This document shows positions 8,570 through 49,035 of a stretch of 64,000 bases of DNA, piece by piece (position 1 is the stretch's first letter; the number at the start of each line of letters is the position of its first letter). This DNA is from Acidimicrobiales bacterium (GTDB lineage Bacteria; Actinomycetota; Acidimicrobiia; Acidimicrobiales; Aldehydirespiratoraceae), in the NCBI GenBank assembly GCA_040219515.1, contig JAVJSI010000017.1, forward strand, positions 124,001 to 188,000. Reading direction: 5' to 3'. The notes under the pieces are model-generated. The model did no database searches. It saw nothing but the letters and a program-made list of their open reading frames with translations, and was not told the origin of the DNA. The translations under genes were made by a program, and so were the position numbers.

Positions 8570-9946
8570 TCAGCCGCGATGCCAGACCGGACCGTTGGCG
8601 GTGTCCTCCACCACGATGCCGCGGGCGGTGAGTTCATCGCGTACGCGGTCGGCCTCGGCGAAGTCCTTGGCCTCGCGGGCGGCGGTGCGAGCCTCGACGA
8701 GGGCGTCGATCTCGGCGTCGTCGACGCCGGCGCTGGACGCCCCGATCGTCAGACCGAGTGCACCGGCCAGATCGATCACCGTGGCGACGAGCGAGGCCGC
8801 CGCAGGATCGTCGTGATCGAGCGCGGCATTGGCCCGGCGCACGGTCTCGAAGATGGTGGCGACCGCCTCGGGTGTGCCCATGTCGTCGTCCATCGCGGAG
8901 CGGAAGGCCTCGACCGCCGCGGAATCGAGCGCTGCGCCGTGCAGGTCGAGGTCGGCGGCGTCGGCCTTGCGGGCCATGGCGTCGAGGCGCTCGACGGCGC
9001 CGCGCGCCTGGGCCATCACCTCGGCGTTGATCTCCATGGTCTTGCGATAGTGCGTCTGCAACAGCAGCAGACGGAGGGCACGGGCATTGAGCGGATGCTC
9101 GTCGAGCAGATCCTGGATGGTCGTGAAGTTGTTGAGCGACTTCGACATCTTCTCGCCGCCGATGTTGAGCATCGCGTTGTGCATCCAGTGGCGGGCGAAC
9201 TCGCGGCCGGCGGCGATTGCCTCGGCCCGCTCGTTGGTGTGGTGCGGGAACACGAGATCGGTGCCCCCACCGTGGAGGTCGAACCCGTCGCCGAGCACAT
9301 CGAGGCTCATGGCGACGCACTCGATGTGCCAGCCGGGGCGTCCATCGCCCCACGGTGACGGCCAGCTCGGCTCGTCCGGCTTCGCCGTCTTCCAGAGCGC
9401 GAAGTCGAGCGGGTCCTCCTTGGCGTCGTCGACCTCGACGCGCGCACCGGCACCCTCACGCAGCTCGTCGACGCTGCGGTGCACGAGCGCGCCGTAGTCC
9501 TTCACGGCGTGCACCCTGAGGTAGACGCCGGTTTCGTTCGCGTAGGCGCTGCCGTTGTCGACGAGGGCCTGGACGAAGTCGACCATCTGATCGACGTACT
9601 CGGTGGCGTGGGGCCGGTCGTGGGGACGGAGAATGCCGAGCGAGTCGAAGATCGCCGCGTCGTAGACGGCCTTCCACGTGGTCGCGATCTCCGATTCGGT
9701 GGCGCCCTCGCGGTTGGCCCGGTTGATGATGTTGTCGTCGATGTCGGTGACGTTGGCGACGTGATGGACGATGAGACCTGTCCACTCGAGGTAGCGACGC
9801 ACGATGTCGTACGTGAACGCCTGCCGAGCGTGGCCGAGATGGGGATGGTCGTAGACCGTGGGCCCGCAGGCATAGAGCGACACTTTGCCCTCGTCGCGGA
9901 GTTCGAGCGGGCGGATCTCTCCGCTGAGGGTGTCGTAGAGGCGCAT
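8570..9946 (-). CDS. cysS: Cysteinyl-tRNA synthetase
   Basis: A 458-residue class I aminoacyl-tRNA synthetase that charges tRNA-Cys. The zinc/substrate site begins at YACGPTVYD, the HIGH-type motif is PHLGH just after it, further zinc ligands lie in WHIECVAMS and VFPHHTNE, and the ATP loop is KMSKS in GGEKMSKSLNN. The C-terminal helical and anticodon-binding parts (about residues 310-458) are complete, which separates it from the shorter MshC next door. ATG 9946 overlaps the mshC stop by one base (TGATG), so the two genes are translationally coupled, mshC first. Confidence 0.96.
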   Translation of the reverse strand: MRLYDTLSGEIRPLELRDEGKVSLYACGPTVYDHPHLGHARQAFTYDIVRRYLEWTGLIVHHVANVTDIDDNIINRANREGATESEIATTWKAVYDAAIFDSLGILRPHDRPHATEYVDQMVDFVQALVDNGSAYANETGVYLRVHAVKDYGALVHRSVDELREGAGARVEVDDAKEDPLDFALWKTAKPDEPSWPSPWGDGRPGWHIECVAMSLDVLGDGFDLHGGGTDLVFPHHTNERAEAIAAGREFARHWMHNAMLNIGGEKMSKSLNNFTTIQDLLDEHPLNARALRLLLLQTHYRKTMEINAEVMAQARGAVERLDAMARKADAADLDLHGAALDSAAVEAFRSAMDDDMGTPEAVATIFETVRRANAALDHDDPAAASLVATVIDLAGALGLTIGASSAGVDDAEIDALVEARTAAREAKDFAEADRVRDELTARGIVVEDTANGPVWHRG

Positions 9947-11130
9947 CAGGTGAAGGGAGTGGACGGGTGGTCGAGGCGGACGCCCACCAGGGCGCCGAGC
10001 TCTGCCAACACCGTAGGTGCGGTCGTGTCGTCGCCCCCGGCGATTATCGCGTCGCCCAACTCGACGAGCGCGGCACGAGCCGTCGGGCCATCGAGGTCGT
10101 CGTCGAGTGCGTCTCGCACCCGCGCGGCGTAGGGCGCGGGATCGGGTCCGCTCGTGTGATCCCTCGCGGTGAGGAGCCGGTCGAGAATCGCCGCGGCGTC
10201 GTCGATGTCGGAGTCGAACCACTCCCAGTCGTCGCGATAGTGATGTCCCATCAGCGCCAGCCGGATGGCTCTGGGATCGGCCGTCTTCGAGAGCTCGCTG
10301 ATGAACACGAGGTTCCCGAGCGACTTCGACATCTTCGTGCCCTCGTAGGCGACCAGGCCGCAGTGCATCCAGTGTCGGACGAACGGCACGCCGGTCGCCG
10401 CCTCGCTCTGCGCTCGTTCGCACTCGTGATGGGGGAAGATCAGGTCGCTGCCGCCACCGTGGAGGTCGATCGTGTCGCCGAGAATGCCCATCGACATCGC
10501 GCTGCACTCGATGTGCCAGCCGGGGCGACCCGGTCCCCACGGTGAATCCCAGCTCGGTTCGTCGTCGAGCGACGGTTGCCAGAGGACGAAGTCGAGCGGA
10601 TTGCGCTGACGCGGGTCGTCGGGCTTTCCGCCTCTCTCGCGGGCGAGATCGATCATCGTCGTCTCGTCGTAGCCCGACACCGCGCCGAACGAGTCGAACG
10701 TCGCAACGTCGAAGAAGACGGTGCCGTCGTCGACGTAGACATGACCGCCGGCGTCGAGCCGTGAGATGAGCTCGACCATCTCGCCCACCCACTTCGTGGC
10801 GTGGGGTTCCGCCTCGACCGGACGGGTGTCGAGGGCCACCATGTCGCCGTGGAAGCGAGCGGTCTCGGCCGCAGCGAGCTCGAGGAAGTCGATGCCGAGC
10901 TCGCGGGCCTTCGGGAGGATCGAGTCGTCGACATCGGTGATGTTGCGCACGAGACGAACCGTGTGGCCCAGATCTTCGAGCCGCCGGATCAACAGGTCGT
11001 AGGTGATGTAGGTGTTGGCGTGGCCGAGGTGGGTCGAGTCATAGGGCGTGATGCCACAGACGTAGATCGAGACCACCTCGCCCGGTTCGAACGGAACGAT
11101 CTCGGCGCGAGCCGTGTCGAAGAGACGCAC
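9946..11130 (-). CDS. mshC: MshC, cysteine:GlcN-inositol ligase (mycothiol biosynthesis)
   Basis: A CysS-related ligase of about 394 residues that joins cysteine to GlcN-Ins, the ATP-dependent step in mycothiol synthesis. It differs from CysS in the known MshC ways: [17 protein letters not shown] replaces the synthetase motif, and the chain ends after a short helical region without the full anticodon-binding domain. Zinc ligands lie in WHIECSAMS and FPHHECE; the ATP loop is KMSKS in [10 protein letters not shown]. The start is uncertain: GTG 11130 begins MRLFDT, which fits the conserved core, but related MshC proteins often carry about 15 more residues. No ATG suits that here. It is coupled to cysS. 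Confidence 0.9.
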
Positions 11131-11180
11131 GGCGACACGGTAGCGGCCGATCGCGGTGGCCCCTGTCGCTGCGGCGGTGG

Positions 11181-11210
11181 CGTTCAGGTCGGTGCCGTTC
11201 AGGTCGGTGG
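11181..11210 (-). repeat. 15-bp tandem direct repeat spanning a stop codon
   Basis: Two adjacent 15-bp units (11181-11195, 11196-11210) differ only in the last base. The second holds the TGA stop (11199-11201) of the 78-residue membrane protein. Same pattern as at 4921. Confidence 0.75.
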
Positions 11211-11435
11211 CGTAGGGTCGTCGTGGGCCGCGTCGTCGACGGGGTCGGCGGCTCCTTGGAGGAACCGGGCGACCACGAGACCCAACAGCGCCAGTCCGAC
11301 GAGCATCACGCCGGCCGCGGTGAACGCGGTGACGTCGATGTCGTCCCACTGGGATTCGGCGAGGATCGCCAGGCCGGCGAGACCGAAGAAGAGTCCGGTG
11401 ACGAGAGCGACGGGGTCGATCGGGTGTGAGTCCAT
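11199..11435 (-). CDS. Small membrane protein, 78 residues
   Basis: A small protein with two predicted membrane helices (about residues 8-25 and 35-60) separated by a short acidic loop (ESQWDDID) and followed by an acidic, proline-containing tail. No family is recognised. Its ATG overlaps the stop of the 22-residue open frame before it (TGATG), which in turn overlaps the PspC/LiaF-type gene, so all three are probably translated from one mRNA. This context suggests an accessory of the envelope-stress membrane complex; that is inference from position only. Confidence 0.6.
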   Translation of the reverse strand: MDSHPIDPVALVTGLFFGLAGLAILAESQWDDIDVTAFTAAGVMLVGLALLGLVVARFLQGAADPVDDAAHDDPTPPT

Positions 11436-11503
11436 CAGGGTTCCTTGGTGAGCTGGTCGAGCAGGACGGCGATCATGAGGCCGAGCATCCAGAAGCTGAT
11501 CAC
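11435..11503 (-). CDS. Candidate 22-residue transmembrane micropeptide
   Basis: A 23-codon frame starting at GTG 11503 inside the stop of the PspC/LiaF-type gene (GTGA overlap) and ending in a TGA that overlaps the ATG of the next gene. The peptide MISFWMLGLMIAVLLDQ plus a polar tail (LTKEP) has the shape of a single membrane helix. Its perfect fit between two coupled genes, with overlap on both sides, argues that it is translated. No homolog is recognised; chance cannot be excluded. Confidence 0.45.
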   Translation of the reverse strand: MISFWMLGLMIAVLLDQLTKEP

Positions 11504-12774
11504 GGGCACGGCACGGTCTCGCTTCCGCAGATGATCACTTCGGCCTCGCCGATACCGAGGTCGACATCGAGCAACAGCGTGCCGCCGCTCGGGTCACCCG
11601 TGGTGCGGTCGATCGCGACCTCGTGGCCATCGTCGTTGCGTCGGGCGCCCTGATCATCGATGATCACGGAACCGAGGTTGCCGTCGAGGTCGATGTCGGT
11701 CTCGAAGGTTTCCGGCACCCAGATCTTCAGCTCGCCGATCGTGAGGCCGATCGCCAGTTCTCGGGTCTCTCCGTCGAGGTCGAGGTCGGCCAGGTTCACG
11801 TGGAACTCGCCGACGCCCCATCGGTACTCGTCGTCGAGCGAGCCGAGATCATCGACGACCACGAGTTCCTCGCCGATGCCCTCCCACCAGGTCAGGTCCA
11901 CCGCCGTGATCGCCCAGGCGATCGGCAGCAACAGCAGGCCCAACCACACGAGGCCCCGGGCCCGTCCGACGAAGGCCGACACGACCAGCACGGCGCCGAG
12001 GATCATCAGGCAGATGGCGAGGAACGCCCCCGGGTCGGTGTGCCACCAGTCGACACGATCGGCGAAGACGGTGAGACCGGTGAAGAGCAGCACGAGGGCG
12101 AGGCCGACAGGTCCCAGAAAGGGAGTGGGGCGTCGCCGACGACGGTGACGGGGACGCGGCGGCTGTGGTTCCGACACATCCGCCGCCGGTTCGTCGCGGT
12201 GGAAGCCCTGCCGATAGCCGTGTTGCCAGTCGGGGCGAACCTCGCTGTCGCGGTCGCCGTCGCGGTCGCCGTCCACACCGCCATGGCCGGGTTGGCGACC
12301 CCGCCATCCGGTGCCATCACTGGGCCACACGAGCAATGCGATGCCGGCGGCGAGGACGAGGAGAGGGAGGAAGAGCTCGTCACCGCCCGGGAACCAGAAG
12401 AACGAACCCGAGAACACGATCACACCGAGAAGGAGCAGGCCCAGCGCGAACAGGGAGCGACCCCGCGGCCGACGACGAGTCCGCAGCGCACTGACCGCTG
12501 CGCTCTCGTCCTCGTGGGCGTCGGGCATGACGAGCCAGGCGAGGAGATAGAGCCCGATGCCGCTGCCGCCGAGCAGGGTCAGCGCGACGAAGCCGAGGCG
12601 GACGATGATCGGGTCGATGCCGAAGTGCTCGCCGATGCCGCCGCTCACGCCGCTGATCATCCGGTCGTAGTCGCTCCGGCGGAGCCGCGGGGGACCGGTG
12701 GGGCCGCCGGGGAGCGGCGGCGACGGCTCGTCCGTCGTGTCGTAGCTGGTGGTCTCGTCGTTCATGGGTTCCAC
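11500..12774 (-). CDS. PspC-domain membrane protein with LiaF-like C-terminus
   Basis: A 424-residue integral membrane protein. Residues about 34-88 form a PspC domain (MISGVSGGIGEHFGIDPIIVRL plus a helix ending in LLAWLVMPD). Further helices follow at about 105-150 and 225-320, with a basic/acidic cytoplasmic insert between. The C-terminal 110 residues form repeated beta strands of the type seen in LiaF-like cell-wall-stress proteins. In known systems LiaF restrains a partner kinase. Here the partner kinase is encoded divergently 120 bp away, across a palindrome. The start may be ATG 12774 or ATG 12765. It leads a coupled set with two tiny membrane proteins. Confidence 0.78.
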   Translation of the reverse strand: MEPMNDETTSYDTTDEPSPPLPGGPTGPPRLRRSDYDRMISGVSGGIGEHFGIDPIIVRLGFVALTLLGGSGIGLYLLAWLVMPDAHEDESAAVSALRTRRRPRGRSLFALGLLLLGVIVFSGSFFWFPGGDELFLPLLVLAAGIALLVWPSDGTGWRGRQPGHGGVDGDRDGDRDSEVRPDWQHGYRQGFHRDEPAADVSEPQPPRPRHRRRRRPTPFLGPVGLALVLLFTGLTVFADRVDWWHTDPGAFLAICLMILGAVLVVSAFVGRARGLVWLGLLLLPIAWAITAVDLTWWEGIGEELVVVDDLGSLDDEYRWGVGEFHVNLADLDLDGETRELAIGLTIGELKIWVPETFETDIDLDGNLGSVIIDDQGARRNDDGHEVAIDRTTGDPSGGTLLLDVDLGIGEAEVIICGSETVPCP

Positions 12775-12801
12775 TCTGACGGGTCGGTCCCCCTTCGACC
12801 A

Positions 12802-12828
12802 TCGGGGTCAACCCTGAGTTGACCCCGA
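12802..12828. promoter_or_regulatory. Palindromic operator in the divergent PspC/kinase promoter
   Basis: Perfect 11-bp inverted arms (TCGGGGTCAAC and GTTGACCCCGA) around a 5-bp centre, midway between the LiaF-like gene and the histidine kinase gene. It is a good candidate binding site for the NarL-type regulator encoded at 14076; no U-tract follows, so a terminator is less likely. Confidence 0.65.
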
Positions 12829-12894
12829 GAGTCGGGGGTCGTCTCCGGGATGGCCCCGAGCCGCGACCGGGCGCGTTCGTGGGACCATGGAGTG

Positions 12895-14073
12895 GTGACC
12901 GAGGCCATCGCCACACCGAGCCGAAATCTCCCTCGACGCTCCACCGACGATCGCGTGGTGGCGGGTGTCTGTGCGGGCCTGGCCCGGACCGTGGGCGTCG
13001 CCCCTCCGGTCGTGCGCATCGCGGCGATCGTGCTCGGCGTCACGGGGACCGGGGGGCTTCTCTATCTGATCGGCTGGGCGCTGCTCCCGGCCGGTGATAC
13101 GGCGGACCCCGACCAACAGGCGTCACCCGAGGTTCGTCGCGGGGTCGGGCTCGCCCTCGTCGTGGTCGGCGTGGTGCTCACCCAGCATGCGCTGGGTCTG
13201 GGCTTCCCGCCGGCGGTCGTCTGGCCGGTGGTCGTGGTCGGGATCGGTGTGGGGGTCGTCGTCTGGCAGGTGAAGCCGCAGCTCGAGGCCACTCGTTCGG
13301 AGGCGGTCCGCATCGGTGCGGGCATCGTGGTCGTCGGCTCGGGTATCGCCGCGCTCATCGCCGGCAATCTCTCGTTCGAGGTCATCCGCAGCAGCCTTCT
13401 GGCCACCACACTCGTGCTCGGAGGTGTGGCGTTGATCGTCGGTCCGTGGATCGCCGTGCTGATGCGCGAGCGCACCGACGAACGGCGCCGCCGACTCCAC
13501 GCCGACGCCCGAGCCGACATGGCCGCGCACCTGCACGACTCGGTGCTCCAGACCCTGGCGCTGATCCAGCGCACCGACGACCCGTCGGCGATCGCCCAGC
13601 TCGCCCGCCAACAGGAACGTGAACTGCGGCGGTGGCTCTACGCCGACTCCGACGACCCGGAGGCGACCACCTTGAAGAACGCCGTCGACCGTGTCGCCGG
13701 CGTGGTCGAGAGTCGATTCGATGTGTCGGTCGAGACCGTGGTGGTGGGCGATGTCGCCCTCGACACCACGCTCGAAGCGCTGATGGGTGCCATGGGAGAG
13801 GCGGCCACCAACGCCGCCAAGTGGTCCGGTTGCGGTCAGGTCTCCGTCTACGCCGAGGTGGAGGACGACGGAGTACGGGTCTTCGTACGCGACACAGGCG
13901 ACGGCTTCGATCCCGCCACCGTGGCCGATGATCGTCTCGGGGTGCGCGAGTCGATCGTCGGGCGGATCGAGCGCGTCGGGGGCAGTGCCGAGATCCGATC
14001 GGTCCTCGGTGCCGGCACCGAGGTGGAGTTGTTCGTCCCGCTGGTCAAGGCGGCCCGCAGGGATACGGTCTGA
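12895..14073 (+). CDS. PspC-domain sensor histidine kinase (HisKA_3 type)
   Basis: A 392-residue membrane kinase. An N-terminal PspC domain (DDRVVAGVCAGLARTVGV, about residues 15-65) is followed by helices at about 80-195, a HisKA_3 phosphoacceptor region with His214 in LHDSVLQTLALI, and a HATPase domain (N-box near GEAATNAAKWSG, G-box DTGDGFD). It would autophosphorylate and pass phosphate to the response regulator whose gene starts 2 bp after its stop. GTG 12895 is chosen; GTG 12892 and ATG 12850 are alternatives, but the latter would cross the likely promoter. With the divergent LiaF-like gene it makes a LiaFSR-like envelope-stress system. Confidence 0.88.
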   Translation: MTEAIATPSRNLPRRSTDDRVVAGVCAGLARTVGVAPPVVRIAAIVLGVTGTGGLLYLIGWALLPAGDTADPDQQASPEVRRGVGLALVVVGVVLTQHALGLGFPPAVVWPVVVVGIGVGVVVWQVKPQLEATRSEAVRIGAGIVVVGSGIAALIAGNLSFEVIRSSLLATTLVLGGVALIVGPWIAVLMRERTDERRRRLHADARADMAAHLHDSVLQTLALIQRTDDPSAIAQLARQQERELRRWLYADSDDPEATTLKNAVDRVAGVVESRFDVSVETVVVGDVALDTTLEALMGAMGEAATNAAKWSGCGQVSVYAEVEDDGVRVFVRDTGDGFDPATVADDRLGVRESIVGRIERVGGSAEIRSVLGAGTEVELFVPLVKAARRDTV

Positions 14074-14075
14074 GG

Positions 14076-14732
14076 ATGCCGGTCGCCCCTCCACGAGTCG
14101 TGCTCGTCGACGATCATCAGATGTTCCGCAGCGGTGTGCGGTCCGAGATCGGCGACCGCGTCACCGTGGTGGCCGAGGCCGACGACATCGCCGACGCAGT
14201 CGCCGTCATCGAGCAGTGGTCGCCCGATGTCGTGCTGCTGGACGTGCACCTGCCTTCGGGGACGGGTCGTGAAGTCATCGAGGCGATCGACGCGGCGGGT
14301 GTCGACACGCGGTTCCTGGCGCTCTCGGTGTCCGACGCGGCCGAGGACGTGATCGACGTCGTGCGGGCGGGCGCCCGGGGCTATGTCACCAAGACCATCT
14401 CGGCCGATGACCTCGTCGACGCCATCATCCGGGTGAGCGAGGGCGATGCGGTGTTCTCGCCCCGGCTCGCCGGCTTCGTGCTGGATGCCTTCGCCGGTGG
14501 CGCTCCGGCCGCGGAACTCGAGGATCCGGCCGATGATCTCGACGTGCTGACGAAGCGGGAGAAGGAGGTGCTGCGGCACCTGGCCCGGGGCTACGCCTAC
14601 AAGGAGATCGCCCAACAGCTCACGATCTCGGTGAAGACGGTCGAGACCCACGCGTCGGCGGTTCTACGCAAGCTCCAGCTCTCGAACCGCAACGAACTCA
14701 GCCGCTGGGCGGCAGCCCGCCGCATCTGGTGA
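14076..14732 (+). CDS. NarL/LuxR family response regulator
   Basis: A 218-residue response regulator. The receiver domain has the acidic pair Asp12/Asp13, the phosphoacceptor Asp56 in VVLLDVHLP and the conserved Lys in YVTKTI. The C-terminal LuxR-type HTH is LTKREKEVLRHLARGYAYKEIAQ followed by VKTVETHASAVLRKL. It is two bases behind the PspC kinase stop and is certainly its partner. Its probable target is the palindrome at 12802-12828, in the promoter between the kinase and the LiaF-like gene, giving an autoregulated stress circuit. Confidence 0.93.
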   Translation: MPVAPPRVVLVDDHQMFRSGVRSEIGDRVTVVAEADDIADAVAVIEQWSPDVVLLDVHLPSGTGREVIEAIDAAGVDTRFLALSVSDAAEDVIDVVRAGARGYVTKTISADDLVDAIIRVSEGDAVFSPRLAGFVLDAFAGGAPAAELEDPADDLDVLTKREKEVLRHLARGYAYKEIAQQLTISVKTVETHASAVLRKLQLSNRNELSRWAAARRIW

Positions 14733-14784: not shown

Positions 14785-15816
14785 ATGGCCGCCATGCGCA
14801 CCCGACTGACCGACGACGAGGAGGCGGTGAAGTCCGTCTTCGACGGGTTCTTCGCCAACGAGTGTCCGATCGAGGTCGTGAGGGCCGCGGCTCCCGGCGG
14901 CCACGACGCCGACCTCTGGGCGAAACTCGCCGCCACCGGCGCCCCCGGAATGGCCGTTCCTGAAGCCGCCGGCGGCGGAGGCGCGACCCTTCGCGATCTC
15001 GCGCTGGTCGTCGAGAGCTGGGGTCACCACCTCGCGCCGGCGCCGCTCGTCGAACACGCAGTGGCGACGCGCCTGCTCCATCACGTCGGCGCCGATGTGG
15101 CGGCGCTCGTCGACGGTGACCGCATCGCCACCCTGGCGTTGCGGGATCCCTCCGACGGACGGGCCCGCCTCGTGCCGGCCGGTGCGGTGGCAACGACGGT
15201 CGTGGCTCGCGTCGACGACGCTGTGGTGCGTATCGACGGCGATGCTCCCGGAACCGGACCGCGCAACACGGGCGACCTGCCGATCGCCGACCGCTCGCTC
15301 GGCGGCGCCGTGACCCTCGGTTCCGCCGACGCCTGGCCGCGTGCGCTCGACGAATGGCGGGCCCTGATGGCGGTCGCCTATTGCGGGCTGGCCCGGCGGG
15401 CTCTCGACATCGGTCTGGACTACGTGAAGGAGCGCATCCAGTTCGATGTGTTGGTCGGGAGCTTCCAGGCGGTACAACACGGGTTCGCCGACGCCGCGAC
15501 CAGGCTCGAGGGCGCCCGTCTTCTCGCTCATCGGGCGGTGTGGGCGCTCGACACCGACCAACCCGAGGGAAGCGCCGACGATCCGGCCCGGCTCGCGGGC
15601 ATGGCCCTGCTGTTCGCGGCCGAGACCGCCCGGTTCGTGACCGACCGGTCGCTCCAGTACCACGGCGGCTACGGGTTCTCCGAGGAGTACGACATCCAGC
15701 TCTACCACCGACGTGCATCGGCCTGGCTGCTCCAGCTCGGTGAGCCCGCGCTCGAGTACGCACGTCTGGCCACCGCCGAGTTCGGCCCGGTCGGATCGAC
15801 CAAGGAGGCTTGCTGA
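14785..15816 (+). CDS. Acyl-CoA dehydrogenase family protein (divergent partner subunit)
   Basis: A 343-residue FAD-dependent acyl-CoA dehydrogenase relative, shorter than the usual 380-400 residues. The N-terminal helical domain and the C-terminal helical bundle (RALMAVAYCGLARRALDIGLDYVKERIQF, LQYHGGYGFSEEYDIQLYHRR) are recognisable; the middle beta domain is reduced. Its stop overlaps the start of a second, full-length enzyme (TGATG), a gene pair arrangement typical of actinobacterial alpha2beta2 acyl-CoA dehydrogenases in which only one subunit carries the catalytic base. The substrate is unknown; steroid or branched acyl-CoA is possible. The start is ATG 14785 or 14794. Confidence 0.85.
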   Translation: MAAMRTRLTDDEEAVKSVFDGFFANECPIEVVRAAAPGGHDADLWAKLAATGAPGMAVPEAAGGGGATLRDLALVVESWGHHLAPAPLVEHAVATRLLHHVGADVAALVDGDRIATLALRDPSDGRARLVPAGAVATTVVARVDDAVVRIDGDAPGTGPRNTGDLPIADRSLGGAVTLGSADAWPRALDEWRALMAVAYCGLARRALDIGLDYVKERIQFDVLVGSFQAVQHGFADAATRLEGARLLAHRAVWALDTDQPEGSADDPARLAGMALLFAAETARFVTDRSLQYHGGYGFSEEYDIQLYHRRASAWLLQLGEPALEYARLATAEFGPVGSTKEAC

Positions 15817-16982
15817 TGGACTTCTCCTTCCCGCCCGAGGTCGAGGCGTTTCGCGCCGAGGTCCGCGAGTTCCTGGCCGAACACCTCACCGAGGAGATGA
15901 TCGAGGCCACCCACGACGGCACGGTGCATGCACCGGCCCTCCACGCGGCGATGGCGGAGCGGGGCTGGTTGTCCGGCCCCGTCCCCGAGGCGCTCGGGGG
16001 CGGGGGCCGCTCCGCGCTCGAGTCGGTGGTGCTCAACGAGGAGCTCCAGCTCGCCCGGGCCCCGATCGACGCGATGGCCGTTTCGATCGTGGTCGCGTCG
16101 ATCCTGCTCGAACACGGCAGCGACCATCTGAAGGAGACGGTCGTACCCCGTCTCCTCGACGGCACCGCCCTCGGCTGCTTCGGCTACACCGAACCCGAGA
16201 GCGGATCCGATGTCGCGGCTGCCCAGACCAAGGCCGTGCTCGACGGAGACCAGTGGGTCATCAACGGCGCCAAGATGTGGACCACCCTGGCCCACATCTC
16301 CGATTACGTGATCCTGCTCACACGCACCGACCCCGAGGTGCCCAAGCACAAGGGCCTCACCTTCTTCCTCGTGCCGCTCGACACGCCGGGCATCGAGATC
16401 CAGCCGGTGCCGACGATGGCCGTCGAGCGCTCGAACGCGACCTTCTACGACGACGTGCGACTCGACGACGAATGGCGCGTCGGCGAGGTGAACGGCGGAT
16501 GGGCCGTCATGAAGACCGCGCTGAAGTACGAGCGCGGCATCGCCGGCGGCCAGTTCCCGTCGCCGCCGGTGATCGATGCGGCCGTCGACTGGTCAGAGAC
16601 CCACGTTCGTTCCGATGGCTCTCGTCCGATCGACGACGCGACGACCCGCGAGAAGCTGATACGGGCGCTCATCGACGTCGAGGTGTGCCGAGGCTTCGCC
16701 TACCACACCGCCGCGTTGGCCGAGGAGGGTGTGATGTTCGGCGTCGAGGGCTCGATGACGAAGCTCTTTGCGTCCGAGAGCTACAAGCGCCACTGCCGTG
16801 AGTTCCACGACCTCATGGGGGTCGAGGGTCTCCTCACCCATCACAACGCCGATGCCCACCTTTCGGGACGAATCGAGGAGAACCTGCGACATTCGCCGGT
16901 GACCACGATCTACGGCGGCACCAGCGAGATCAGCCGCAATCTGATCGCCGAAGGCCACCTCGGTCTTCCCCGCGCTCGCTGA
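15816..16982 (+). CDS. Acyl-CoA dehydrogenase
   Basis: A 388-residue acyl-CoA dehydrogenase. Features include the flavin-binding GYTEPESGSD and WVINGAKMWTT segments, LVPLDTPGI in the middle domain and VTTIYGGTSEISRNLIA near the end, where the residue before GTS is Gly instead of the Glu base of the MCAD type, so the base must lie elsewhere or on the partner. ATG 15816 overlaps the previous stop and is preceded by a strong AAGGAGG at 15802-15808; an upstream in-frame TTG is rejected. It most likely forms a complex with the upstream subunit and feeds electrons to an electron transfer flavoprotein. Confidence 0.92.
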   Translation: MDFSFPPEVEAFRAEVREFLAEHLTEEMIEATHDGTVHAPALHAAMAERGWLSGPVPEALGGGGRSALESVVLNEELQLARAPIDAMAVSIVVASILLEHGSDHLKETVVPRLLDGTALGCFGYTEPESGSDVAAAQTKAVLDGDQWVINGAKMWTTLAHISDYVILLTRTDPEVPKHKGLTFFLVPLDTPGIEIQPVPTMAVERSNATFYDDVRLDDEWRVGEVNGGWAVMKTALKYERGIAGGQFPSPPVIDAAVDWSETHVRSDGSRPIDDATTREKLIRALIDVEVCRGFAYHTAALAEEGVMFGVEGSMTKLFASESYKRHCREFHDLMGVEGLLTHHNADAHLSGRIEENLRHSPVTTIYGGTSEISRNLIAEGHLGLPRAR

Positions 16983-28412: not shown

Positions 28413-28420
28413 CGTGACAC

Positions 28421-28455
28421 GAGACCCGGCGCCCAGCGCCGGGTCTCGCAGTTTT
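28421..28455 (+). terminator. Intrinsic terminator after tRNA-Tyr
   Basis: A perfect 12-bp stem (GAGACCCGGCGC / GCGCCGGGTCTC) with a 3-nt loop at 28421-28447, followed by gcaGTTTT. Confidence 0.88.
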
Positions 28456-48243: not shown

Positions 48244-49035
48244 ATGACCCGACCTGTCGCCCTCGTCACCGGAGCTGCCCGCGGGATGGGGGCGGCCACC
48301 GTCGCCCGCCTCGTCGCCGATGGCTGGTCCGTGGTCGCCACCGACATCTGTGCCGACGAACCCGCGATTCCGTACGGACTGGGCACCCGTGACCAGCTCG
48401 AGGCGGTCGCCGCCGAGGGTGGCGAGCACGTTCACGCGATGGTCGCCGACGTGCGGGACCAGGCCGCGGTGCGCACTGCGGTCGAGGCGGCCGTCGATCT
48501 CTACGGCCGCCTCGACGCCGCGATCGCGATCGCCGGTGTGTTCGCGGCCGGCAAGCGCATGTGGGAGGTGTCCGACGAGGAGTGGGATGCAGTGGTCGAC
48601 ATCGACCTGCGTGGCGTGTTCCACACCGCCCGCGCGGCCATCCCCGCGATCCTCGAGAGCCCCGAGCCGTGGCGCGGCCGCTTCGTCGGCGTCGCGTCGA
48701 CCGCCGCCATCGTCGGTCTCCAGAACATGGCGCCCTATGTCGCGGCGAAGCACGGTGTGGTCGGGCTCGTCCGCGCGCTCGCCGTCGACCTCGCGGGAAC
48801 GGGCGTGACCTCGAACGCCATCGCCCCCGGGTCGACCCGCACGGCCATCCTCGAGGCCTCCGCCACCGCCTACGACACCGACATCGACGAGTTCGCGACC
48901 CACCAGCGGCCCATCGGTCGGTTGGTCGAGGCCGAGGAGATCGCCGGAGCGGTCGCCTACCTGTGCTCGGAATCGGCAGCCGCCGTCACCGGCGTCGTCC
49001 TGCCCGTCGACGGCGGGATGACCAGCACCATCTGA
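48244..49035 (+). CDS. Mycofactocin-coupled SDR oxidoreductase
   Basis: A 263-residue SDR with VALVTGAARGMGAATVARL, NAG-like IAIAGVF, Ser in VASTAAIVGL and YVAAKHG (Tyr/Lys). After beta-2 it has an insertion, TDICADEPAIPYGLGTRDQLEAV, the kind that marks mycofactocin-coupled SDRs (families such as TIGR03971/TIGR04504). These enzymes keep NAD(H) bound and pass electrons to mycofactocin. Its position directly after mftE supports this. The alcohol substrate is unknown. The next gene, an NDMA-dependent alcohol dehydrogenase, starts 88 bp downstream. Confidence 0.9.
   Translation: MTRPVALVTGAARGMGAATVARLVADGWSVVATDICADEPAIPYGLGTRDQLEAVAAEGGEHVHAMVADVRDQAAVRTAVEAAVDLYGRLDAAIAIAGVFAAGKRMWEVSDEEWDAVVDIDLRGVFHTARAAIPAILESPEPWRGRFVGVASTAAIVGLQNMAPYVAAKHGVVGLVRALAVDLAGTGVTSNAIAPGSTRTAILEASATAYDTDIDEFATHQRPIGRLVEAEEIAGAVAYLCSESAAAVTGVVLPVDGGMTSTI

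Follow-up and report, generated by a model that had tools for sequence, protein, structure and literature searches.

A candidate six-half-site operator between the divergent PspC-domain genes of a LiaFSR-like, EsrISR-type system in an Acidimicrobiales genome

The stretch of DNA analysed here (the window, 64,000 nucleotides) is taken from an Acidimicrobiales bacterium, assembly GCA_040219515.1, contig JAVJSI010000017.1, positions 124,001 to 188,000. It carries three adjoining genes, here called F, K and R, for a LiaF/EsrI-like membrane protein, a histidine kinase and a response regulator, with F divergent from the K-R pair. The domains, the gene order, the conserved half-sites between F and K and the spacing of these half-sites are observed; the locus as a whole is probably a LiaFSR-like three-component envelope-stress system of the EsrISR-like PspC type, in which phosphorylated R (R~P) would activate both F and K-R through an array at 12802–12859. 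Comparison with other genomes indicates that the probable DNA switch extends beyond the 27-bp palindrome singled out by a first-pass annotation of the window, is more regular than it, and is recognisable in many relatives.

F occupies 11500–12765 on the minus strand, counted from a conserved start ATG 12765 (11500–12774 as called by the open reading frame (ORF) tool, which places the start at 12774), and consists of a PspC domain (residues 30–86, 79.6 bits, Pfam cut-off 25), transmembrane (TM) helices and a C-terminal LiaF-C/Toastrack-type beta domain. K lies on the plus strand at 12895–14073 from its likely start GTG 12895 (12850–14073 from ATG 12850 in the ORF tool's version). It has PspC at its N-terminus (residues 29–81, 54.5 bits, cut-off 25), HATPase_c (34.8 bits, cut-off 26.4) and the motif HLHDSVLQ with His229 (numbered from ATG 12850); a Pfam match to HisKA_3 was not found in it at E values up to 0.1. 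R (14076–14732, plus strand) is by ORF and Pfam a NarL/LuxR-type regulator with Response_reg, receiver Asp56 and a GerE helix-turn-helix (HTH) domain, and its gene directly follows that of the kinase, 2 bp separating K stop from R start. As in their families generally, His229 of K and Asp56 of R are the presumed phospho sites. Pfam and ORF positions therefore bear out the first-pass description of a LiaF-like protein and a kinase that face each other and both carry PspC, with the regulator gene 2 bp behind the kinase; the claimed span of 11435–14732 places the genes correctly, although its left edge overshoots F, which ends at 11500. Domains, gene order and homology likewise speak for the proposed LiaFSR-like circuit, whose nearest match is the PspC type of Actinobacteria (EsrISR).

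In the predicted model of F the helices are followed by an all-beta domain at the C-terminus, with strands between 297 and 413 and a predicted local distance difference test score of 91–97 over residues 301–410. LiaF-like_C was matched at E ≤ 0.01 in all nine F relatives scanned (from 57 F references), and above cut-off in two of them (L074 and L107). Cross-alignments suggest that F and K share a common module. Residues 33–150 of the window F align with the kinase frame of locus L013 (37% identity, E 5e-13), residues 26–141 of K align with the F gene of genome G015 (41%), and within the window F 1–84 aligns more weakly with K (32%, E 3e-6), so the shared stretch extends beyond PspC. A direct PspC–PspC contact in the membrane, as the first-pass annotation had proposed, is plausible given such a module.

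The perfect 11-bp palindrome reported between the two genes is present as described: 12802–12828 reads TCGGGGTCAAC-CCTGA-GTTGACCCCGA, with arms of 11, a loop of 5 and zero mismatches. It has no other match in the window at up to three mismatches (shuffle mean 0, 100 shuffles), and is the third-longest perfect inverted repeat there (arms of at least 9, loop up to 10); the longer ones are at 48481–48516 (arms 14 bp) and 28420–28448 (arms 13 bp). Across the 4.02-Mb genome its inner 9-bp arms with the 5-bp loop occur without mismatch at a single place and at three more only with 3 mismatches, and a regulon made up of palindrome copies was rejected on this count. Perfect arms and their rarity in the genome would suit a single dimer site with 11-bp arms, but the arms are not kept in congeners. 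Six congeners were found and four aligned (L035, L008, L036 and L037; G002 and G003 were left out, their kinase regions being incomplete); the window and these four share the left 16 bp, TCGGGGTCAACCCTGA, without any difference, whereas all four congeners have TTCGACCCTGA or ATCGACCCTGA as the right arm and none has perfect arms. We therefore consider a single palindromic dimer site very unlikely. By this comparison the palindrome itself is not the conserved unit; the half-site TCRGGG/CCCYGA is. The repeat corresponds to candidate half-sites 1–3 (TCGGGG 12802–12807, CCCTGA 12812–12817 and CCCCGA 12823–12828), and the arms are perfect because half-site 3 happens to read CCCCGA in the window. 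As a proposal for the regulator's site, the palindrome thus marks the right place and probably the wrong unit. Judged from sequence and conservation, without folding or a terminator scan, an RNA hairpin or terminator is barely credible: perfect arms around a 5-nt loop would fit one, but the repeat sits between divergent starts, no T-run follows it in the sequence, and conservation tracks half-sites and helical spacing rather than arm pairing.

Conservation of the half-site was evaluated in 66 loci, the window included, each region running from one divergent PspC domain to the other with 20 bp added per side; eight duplicate loci, whose genomes were present in two collections, had been removed beforehand. 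Shuffled controls from our own script were Markov resamplings that keep dinucleotide frequencies only on average. A scan of all 6-bp palindromic pairs at spacings of 0–10, with one mismatch allowed between arms, ranked TCGGGG-N4-CCCCGA first (27 of the 66 regions) and TCAGGG-N4-CCCTGA second (20/66), against 8 for the top motif in any of 20 shuffles. The combined TCRGGG-N4-CCCYGA is found exactly in 26 regions and with at most one mismatch in 43, where 200 shuffles gave means of 0.03 (maximum 1) and 1.07 (maximum 4); at up to two mismatches, a count made without a shuffle control, it is in 61. With one representative per 60% kinase-identity cluster the exact motif remains in 8 of 27 and the one-mismatch motif in 17 of 27. 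A held-out set was taken from 36 loci without a detected divergent PspC, of which 21 were usable (13 of the others had the kinase aligned from residue 74 or later and two had too little upstream DNA); all 21 are relatives of loci among the 66. Upstream of K these contain the motif exactly in 3, at up to one mismatch in 15 and at up to two in 17, the corresponding shuffle means being 0.015, 0.4 and 4.0 and the maxima 1, 4 and 9.

The proposed full operator, 12802–12859, adds TCGGGG 12832–12837, TCCGGG 12844–12849 and CCCCGA 12854–12859 to the three half-sites of the repeat. The six start at 12802, 12812, 12823, 12832, 12844 and 12854, in the order > < < > > <, and five of them fit TCRGGG/CCCYGA, the one at 12844 (TCCGGG) being off by one mismatch. 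The congener alignment has half-sites at 0, 10, 21, 31, 42 and 52–53 in this same order, which is its own reverse complement; the array is dyad-symmetric, with a spacing of about 10.5 bp. Where the first box was good (44 loci), a second one scored 17.5 at 42 bp, 13 at 43 bp, 8.5 at 31 bp and 5.5 at each of 54 and 55 bp, against a maximum of 5 at any distance in 200 shuffles. Scored as a whole, the array reached at least 29 of 36 in 24 of the 66 loci and in none of 2640 shuffles, and at least 28 in 37 loci against 0.11% of shuffles; ten of the 14 regions from the window's family scored at least 33.

The array lies almost evenly between the likely starts of the two genes. F more probably begins at ATG 12765 and K at GTG 12895, starts that are preferred because ATG 12850 falls within the proposed operator. 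From these starts, which are 129 bp apart, the array ends are 36 and 35 bp away and the centres of the outer boxes (12809.5 and 12851.5) 44.5 and 43.5 bp away, for F and K respectively. Among the 18 loci with an array score of at least 30, two gave no F gap; the gap between F ATG and array is 35–36 bp in 13 of the 16 with a value, the rest being 47, 356 and one evident start mispick (L046, −406). A search with the three-half-site core alone (0, +10, +21) was made in 57 regions, nine of the 66 having no F reference. The core was found at up to two mismatches in 35, and in one shuffle per locus 0 of 57 reached even three; it is 35–36 bp from the F ATG in 15, 47 bp in one, 58–59 bp in four and 75–100 bp in 15. 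Ten further loci have a core at 35–36 bp with 3–4 mismatches. Of the 25 loci with the core at 35–36 bp, 18 have A at −11 before the F ATG and 20 have T at −7, which is the place of a −10 hexamer if transcription begins at the start codon; this suggests leaderless promoters for F in the relatives. Putative counterparts in the window are the −10-like hexamers CAGAGT of F (12773–12778, minus strand) and GACCAT of K (12883–12888, plus strand), the latter of which would give a leaderless start at GTG 12895. In general, a box so positioned suits an activator that touches RNA polymerase.

Position alone cannot tell activation from repression, and R might instead repress F and/or K from the operator, by autorepression; EsrR is said to repress nlpC in Corynebacterium glutamicum under envelope stress (PMC9960051). 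Yet the outer boxes end 35–36 bp from the starts, upstream of the −10-like hexamers and not over them, and esrI belongs to the induced Esr regulon (PMC6975037), so that we regard repression as unlikely.

We also looked for the sites elsewhere. The 27-bp core occurs with zero mismatches at two places in the genome, in the window and at C3:26237, and at none with one mismatch. The second place is the 3′ end of the gene of another NarL-type regulator (RR2; genome G000, contig C3, near 26237; loci L115, L155 and L157), ahead of an ABC transporter ATPase gene. In congener G003 (L154) the genes around RR2 encode a HisKA_3 kinase, an ABC ATPase and a MacB_PCD protein. Fourteen of 21 RR2-like loci were examined, of which four could not be anchored; three half-sites 9–12 bp apart recur in seven of the ten readable ones (G000, G003, G004, G005, G006, G013 and G015), and some RR2 loci in relatives have direct CCCTGA/CCCCGA repeats about every 11 bp. 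The ABC transporter is a candidate second target, and the half-sites there could be RR2's own. That the half-sites in general belong to another regulator such as the paralogous RR2 would agree with this exact core and its recurrence, and with the places of TCRGGGN4CCCTGA in relatives: matches were found in 11 of 12 genomes (reversed controls in two), and of the 28 distinct exact places in these 11, 11 are at K/F loci, two at RR2 and 15 at neither. But K/F loci of many genera carry the motif, including regions outside its derivation set, and among the ten readable RR2 loci the one of G021 and the two of G030 lack the array. We consider ownership by another regulator quite unlikely.

Looser searches in the window's genome were not used as evidence. 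One-mismatch 16-bp matches number 161 per strand against 25 for the reversed-pattern control, and the 27-bp core at up to three mismatches has 105 matches (both strands) against 14 for controls, of which only those with zero mismatches were used. Exact 16-bp places number three, against two in the control; the one at C5:303685, inside a uppP-like frame (named by eye), is treated as chance. In a phylum sample of 296 genomes, a 27-bp pattern ending in CCCTGA, to which the operator of the window itself does not conform, was found in 11 genomes, with 0 reversed controls; of the 12 places other than the genome's own at C3, four are at K/F loci and eight are elsewhere without explanation. Loci L187 and L188 (G068 and G053, one genus) have exact 27-bp cores at position 1501, away from K/F loci, with an RR2-like frame no more than about 1.1 kb from each.

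In the circuit that we propose, F would restrain K in the membrane of unstressed cells, and a stress signal would relieve this hold. K would then phosphorylate R at Asp56, and R~P dimers would bind the dyad-symmetric operator 12802–12859, which offers a half-site about once per helical turn. Since the outer dimer sites are 44.5 and 43.5 bp from the likely starts, R~P would activate F and the K-R operon jointly, from two putative leaderless promoters; the outcome would be positive feedback on K-R and negative feedback via F.

Several observations weigh against this reading or against parts of it. The array is tied to R by linkage only. The congener alignment supplied the array model, and half-sites 1 and 2 of that model are the motif found earlier, so its scores are no independent test. 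Within the window's family four of the 14 regions (L015, L019, L020 and L044) score 26–29 and are without half-site 4; five of the 66 regions have no site at up to two mismatches, and two-mismatch sites are common by chance (about 4 of 21 per held-out shuffle set). The half-site is not exclusive to the K/F locus, given the 15 exact places at neither K/F nor RR2. Cores at 75–100 bp from F, rather than 35–36 bp, are seen mainly in Kribbella, plus some others, and the CAGAGT of the window is shifted by one base, away from the ATG, relative to where such a hexamer most often lies in relatives. On the K side, an in-frame ATG or GTG is 34–38 bp past the array in 16 of the 18 loci scoring at least 30, a count in which starts were picked among up to three candidates, without a chance control. 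For F itself, the LiaF-like_C match in the window is sub-threshold (16.6 bits, Pfam cut-off 29), and a PDB fold search gave no match under E 0.001 (best 4qrk, 1.1e-3). In C. glutamicum, esrI is up 2.3-fold on AmyE secretion and unchanged with cutinase (PMC6975037).

Around the three genes, an MshC-like frame and then cysS lie downstream of F on the same strand, at 9946–11349 and 8570–10792 (both minus). The MshC-like frame matches TIGR03447 at 410.5 bits (cut-off 485.1) and also the cysS model TIGR00435 at 348.8 (cut-off 340); the cysS that follows it scores 455 bits. After R, two frames in 14785–16982 (plus strand) resemble acyl-CoA dehydrogenases, as judged by eye from the translation.

To our knowledge few PspC-fused kinases have known targets. 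A conserved, countable operator would allow target genes to be predicted from sequence, permits a direct test of which promoters such a system controls, and would offer a clean example of a sensor and its own inhibitor set by one symmetric element. A wider proposal, for and against which we find the case evenly balanced, is that PspC-kinase systems across Actinomycetota share the half-site signature, that in the window's family a symmetric array drives two equidistant leaderless promoters, and that the C3 transporter is a further target. If so, the three-half-site core would be fixed 35–36 bp from the LiaF-like gene in several lineages, six half-sites on one helix face would switch sensor and inhibitor through a single symmetric element, and the ABC transporter gene with the same core would be one further target in this genome.

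A literature search, thin in its coverage of subscription journals, did not find the half-site operator; the EsrISR work of Kleine et al. (2017) may describe an EsrR site. Because the nlpC promoter is stated to have an EsrR site (PMC9960051), novelty of the motif is unproven. The circuit type is already described for Actinobacteria, the arrangement being in print (PMC11237479) and EsrISR its studied example. PspC-fused kinases are frequent there: a histidine kinase domain is present in over half of the PspC proteins of Actinobacteria that are longer than 300 residues, with EsrISR cited (PMC9239133). The actinobacterial Lia-like system without PspA (AIJ13865/AIJ13866 type, PMC11237479) combines, as here, a PspC and LiaF-LiaI-TM kinase with a REC-HTH protein, and from the shared promoter region a PspC gene with additional TMs, and sometimes Toastrack, is read divergently, an arrangement that the window repeats; the available portion of that paper gives no operator for it.

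Among other relatives, the best NCBIfam match of K is the MacS family kinase (NF047322, residues 138–397), at 95.7 bits far under its 300-bit cut-off and omitting the PspC part. LiaFSR of Bacillus subtilis and VraTSR of Staphylococcus aureus likewise join a LiaF/Toastrack-type membrane protein to a kinase and a regulator (PMC11237479), and LiaF inhibits LiaRS (PMC7191749, PMC11237479). However, LiaS has TM and HAMP with no PspC named, whereas the window K carries PspC, and the lia genes form one operon, liaIHGFSR, whereas F is divergent from K-R (PMC11237479); nor does the window F have the LiaF C-terminal domain above the curated cut-off that marks Firmicute LiaFSR (16.6 bits against 29). EsrISR of C. 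glutamicum (cg0706, cg0707, cg0709; CgtSR7) is closer, again pairing a PspC histidine kinase with a LuxR-type regulator: Cg0707 has PspC at 47–107, HisKA_3 and HATPase_c, and Cg0709 is of the LuxR type (PMC3353115). EsrI is described as inhibiting EsrSR; the Esr regulon, to which esrI itself belongs, responds to envelope stress and is activated by bacitracin and vancomycin (PMC6975037). Cg0707 differs from the window K in its HisKA_3, for which K has no Pfam match at E up to 0.1. Three features of the EsrISR type are found in the window: PspC at the N-terminus of the kinase, a LuxR/NarL gene directly after it, and a divergent gene for a PspC membrane protein.

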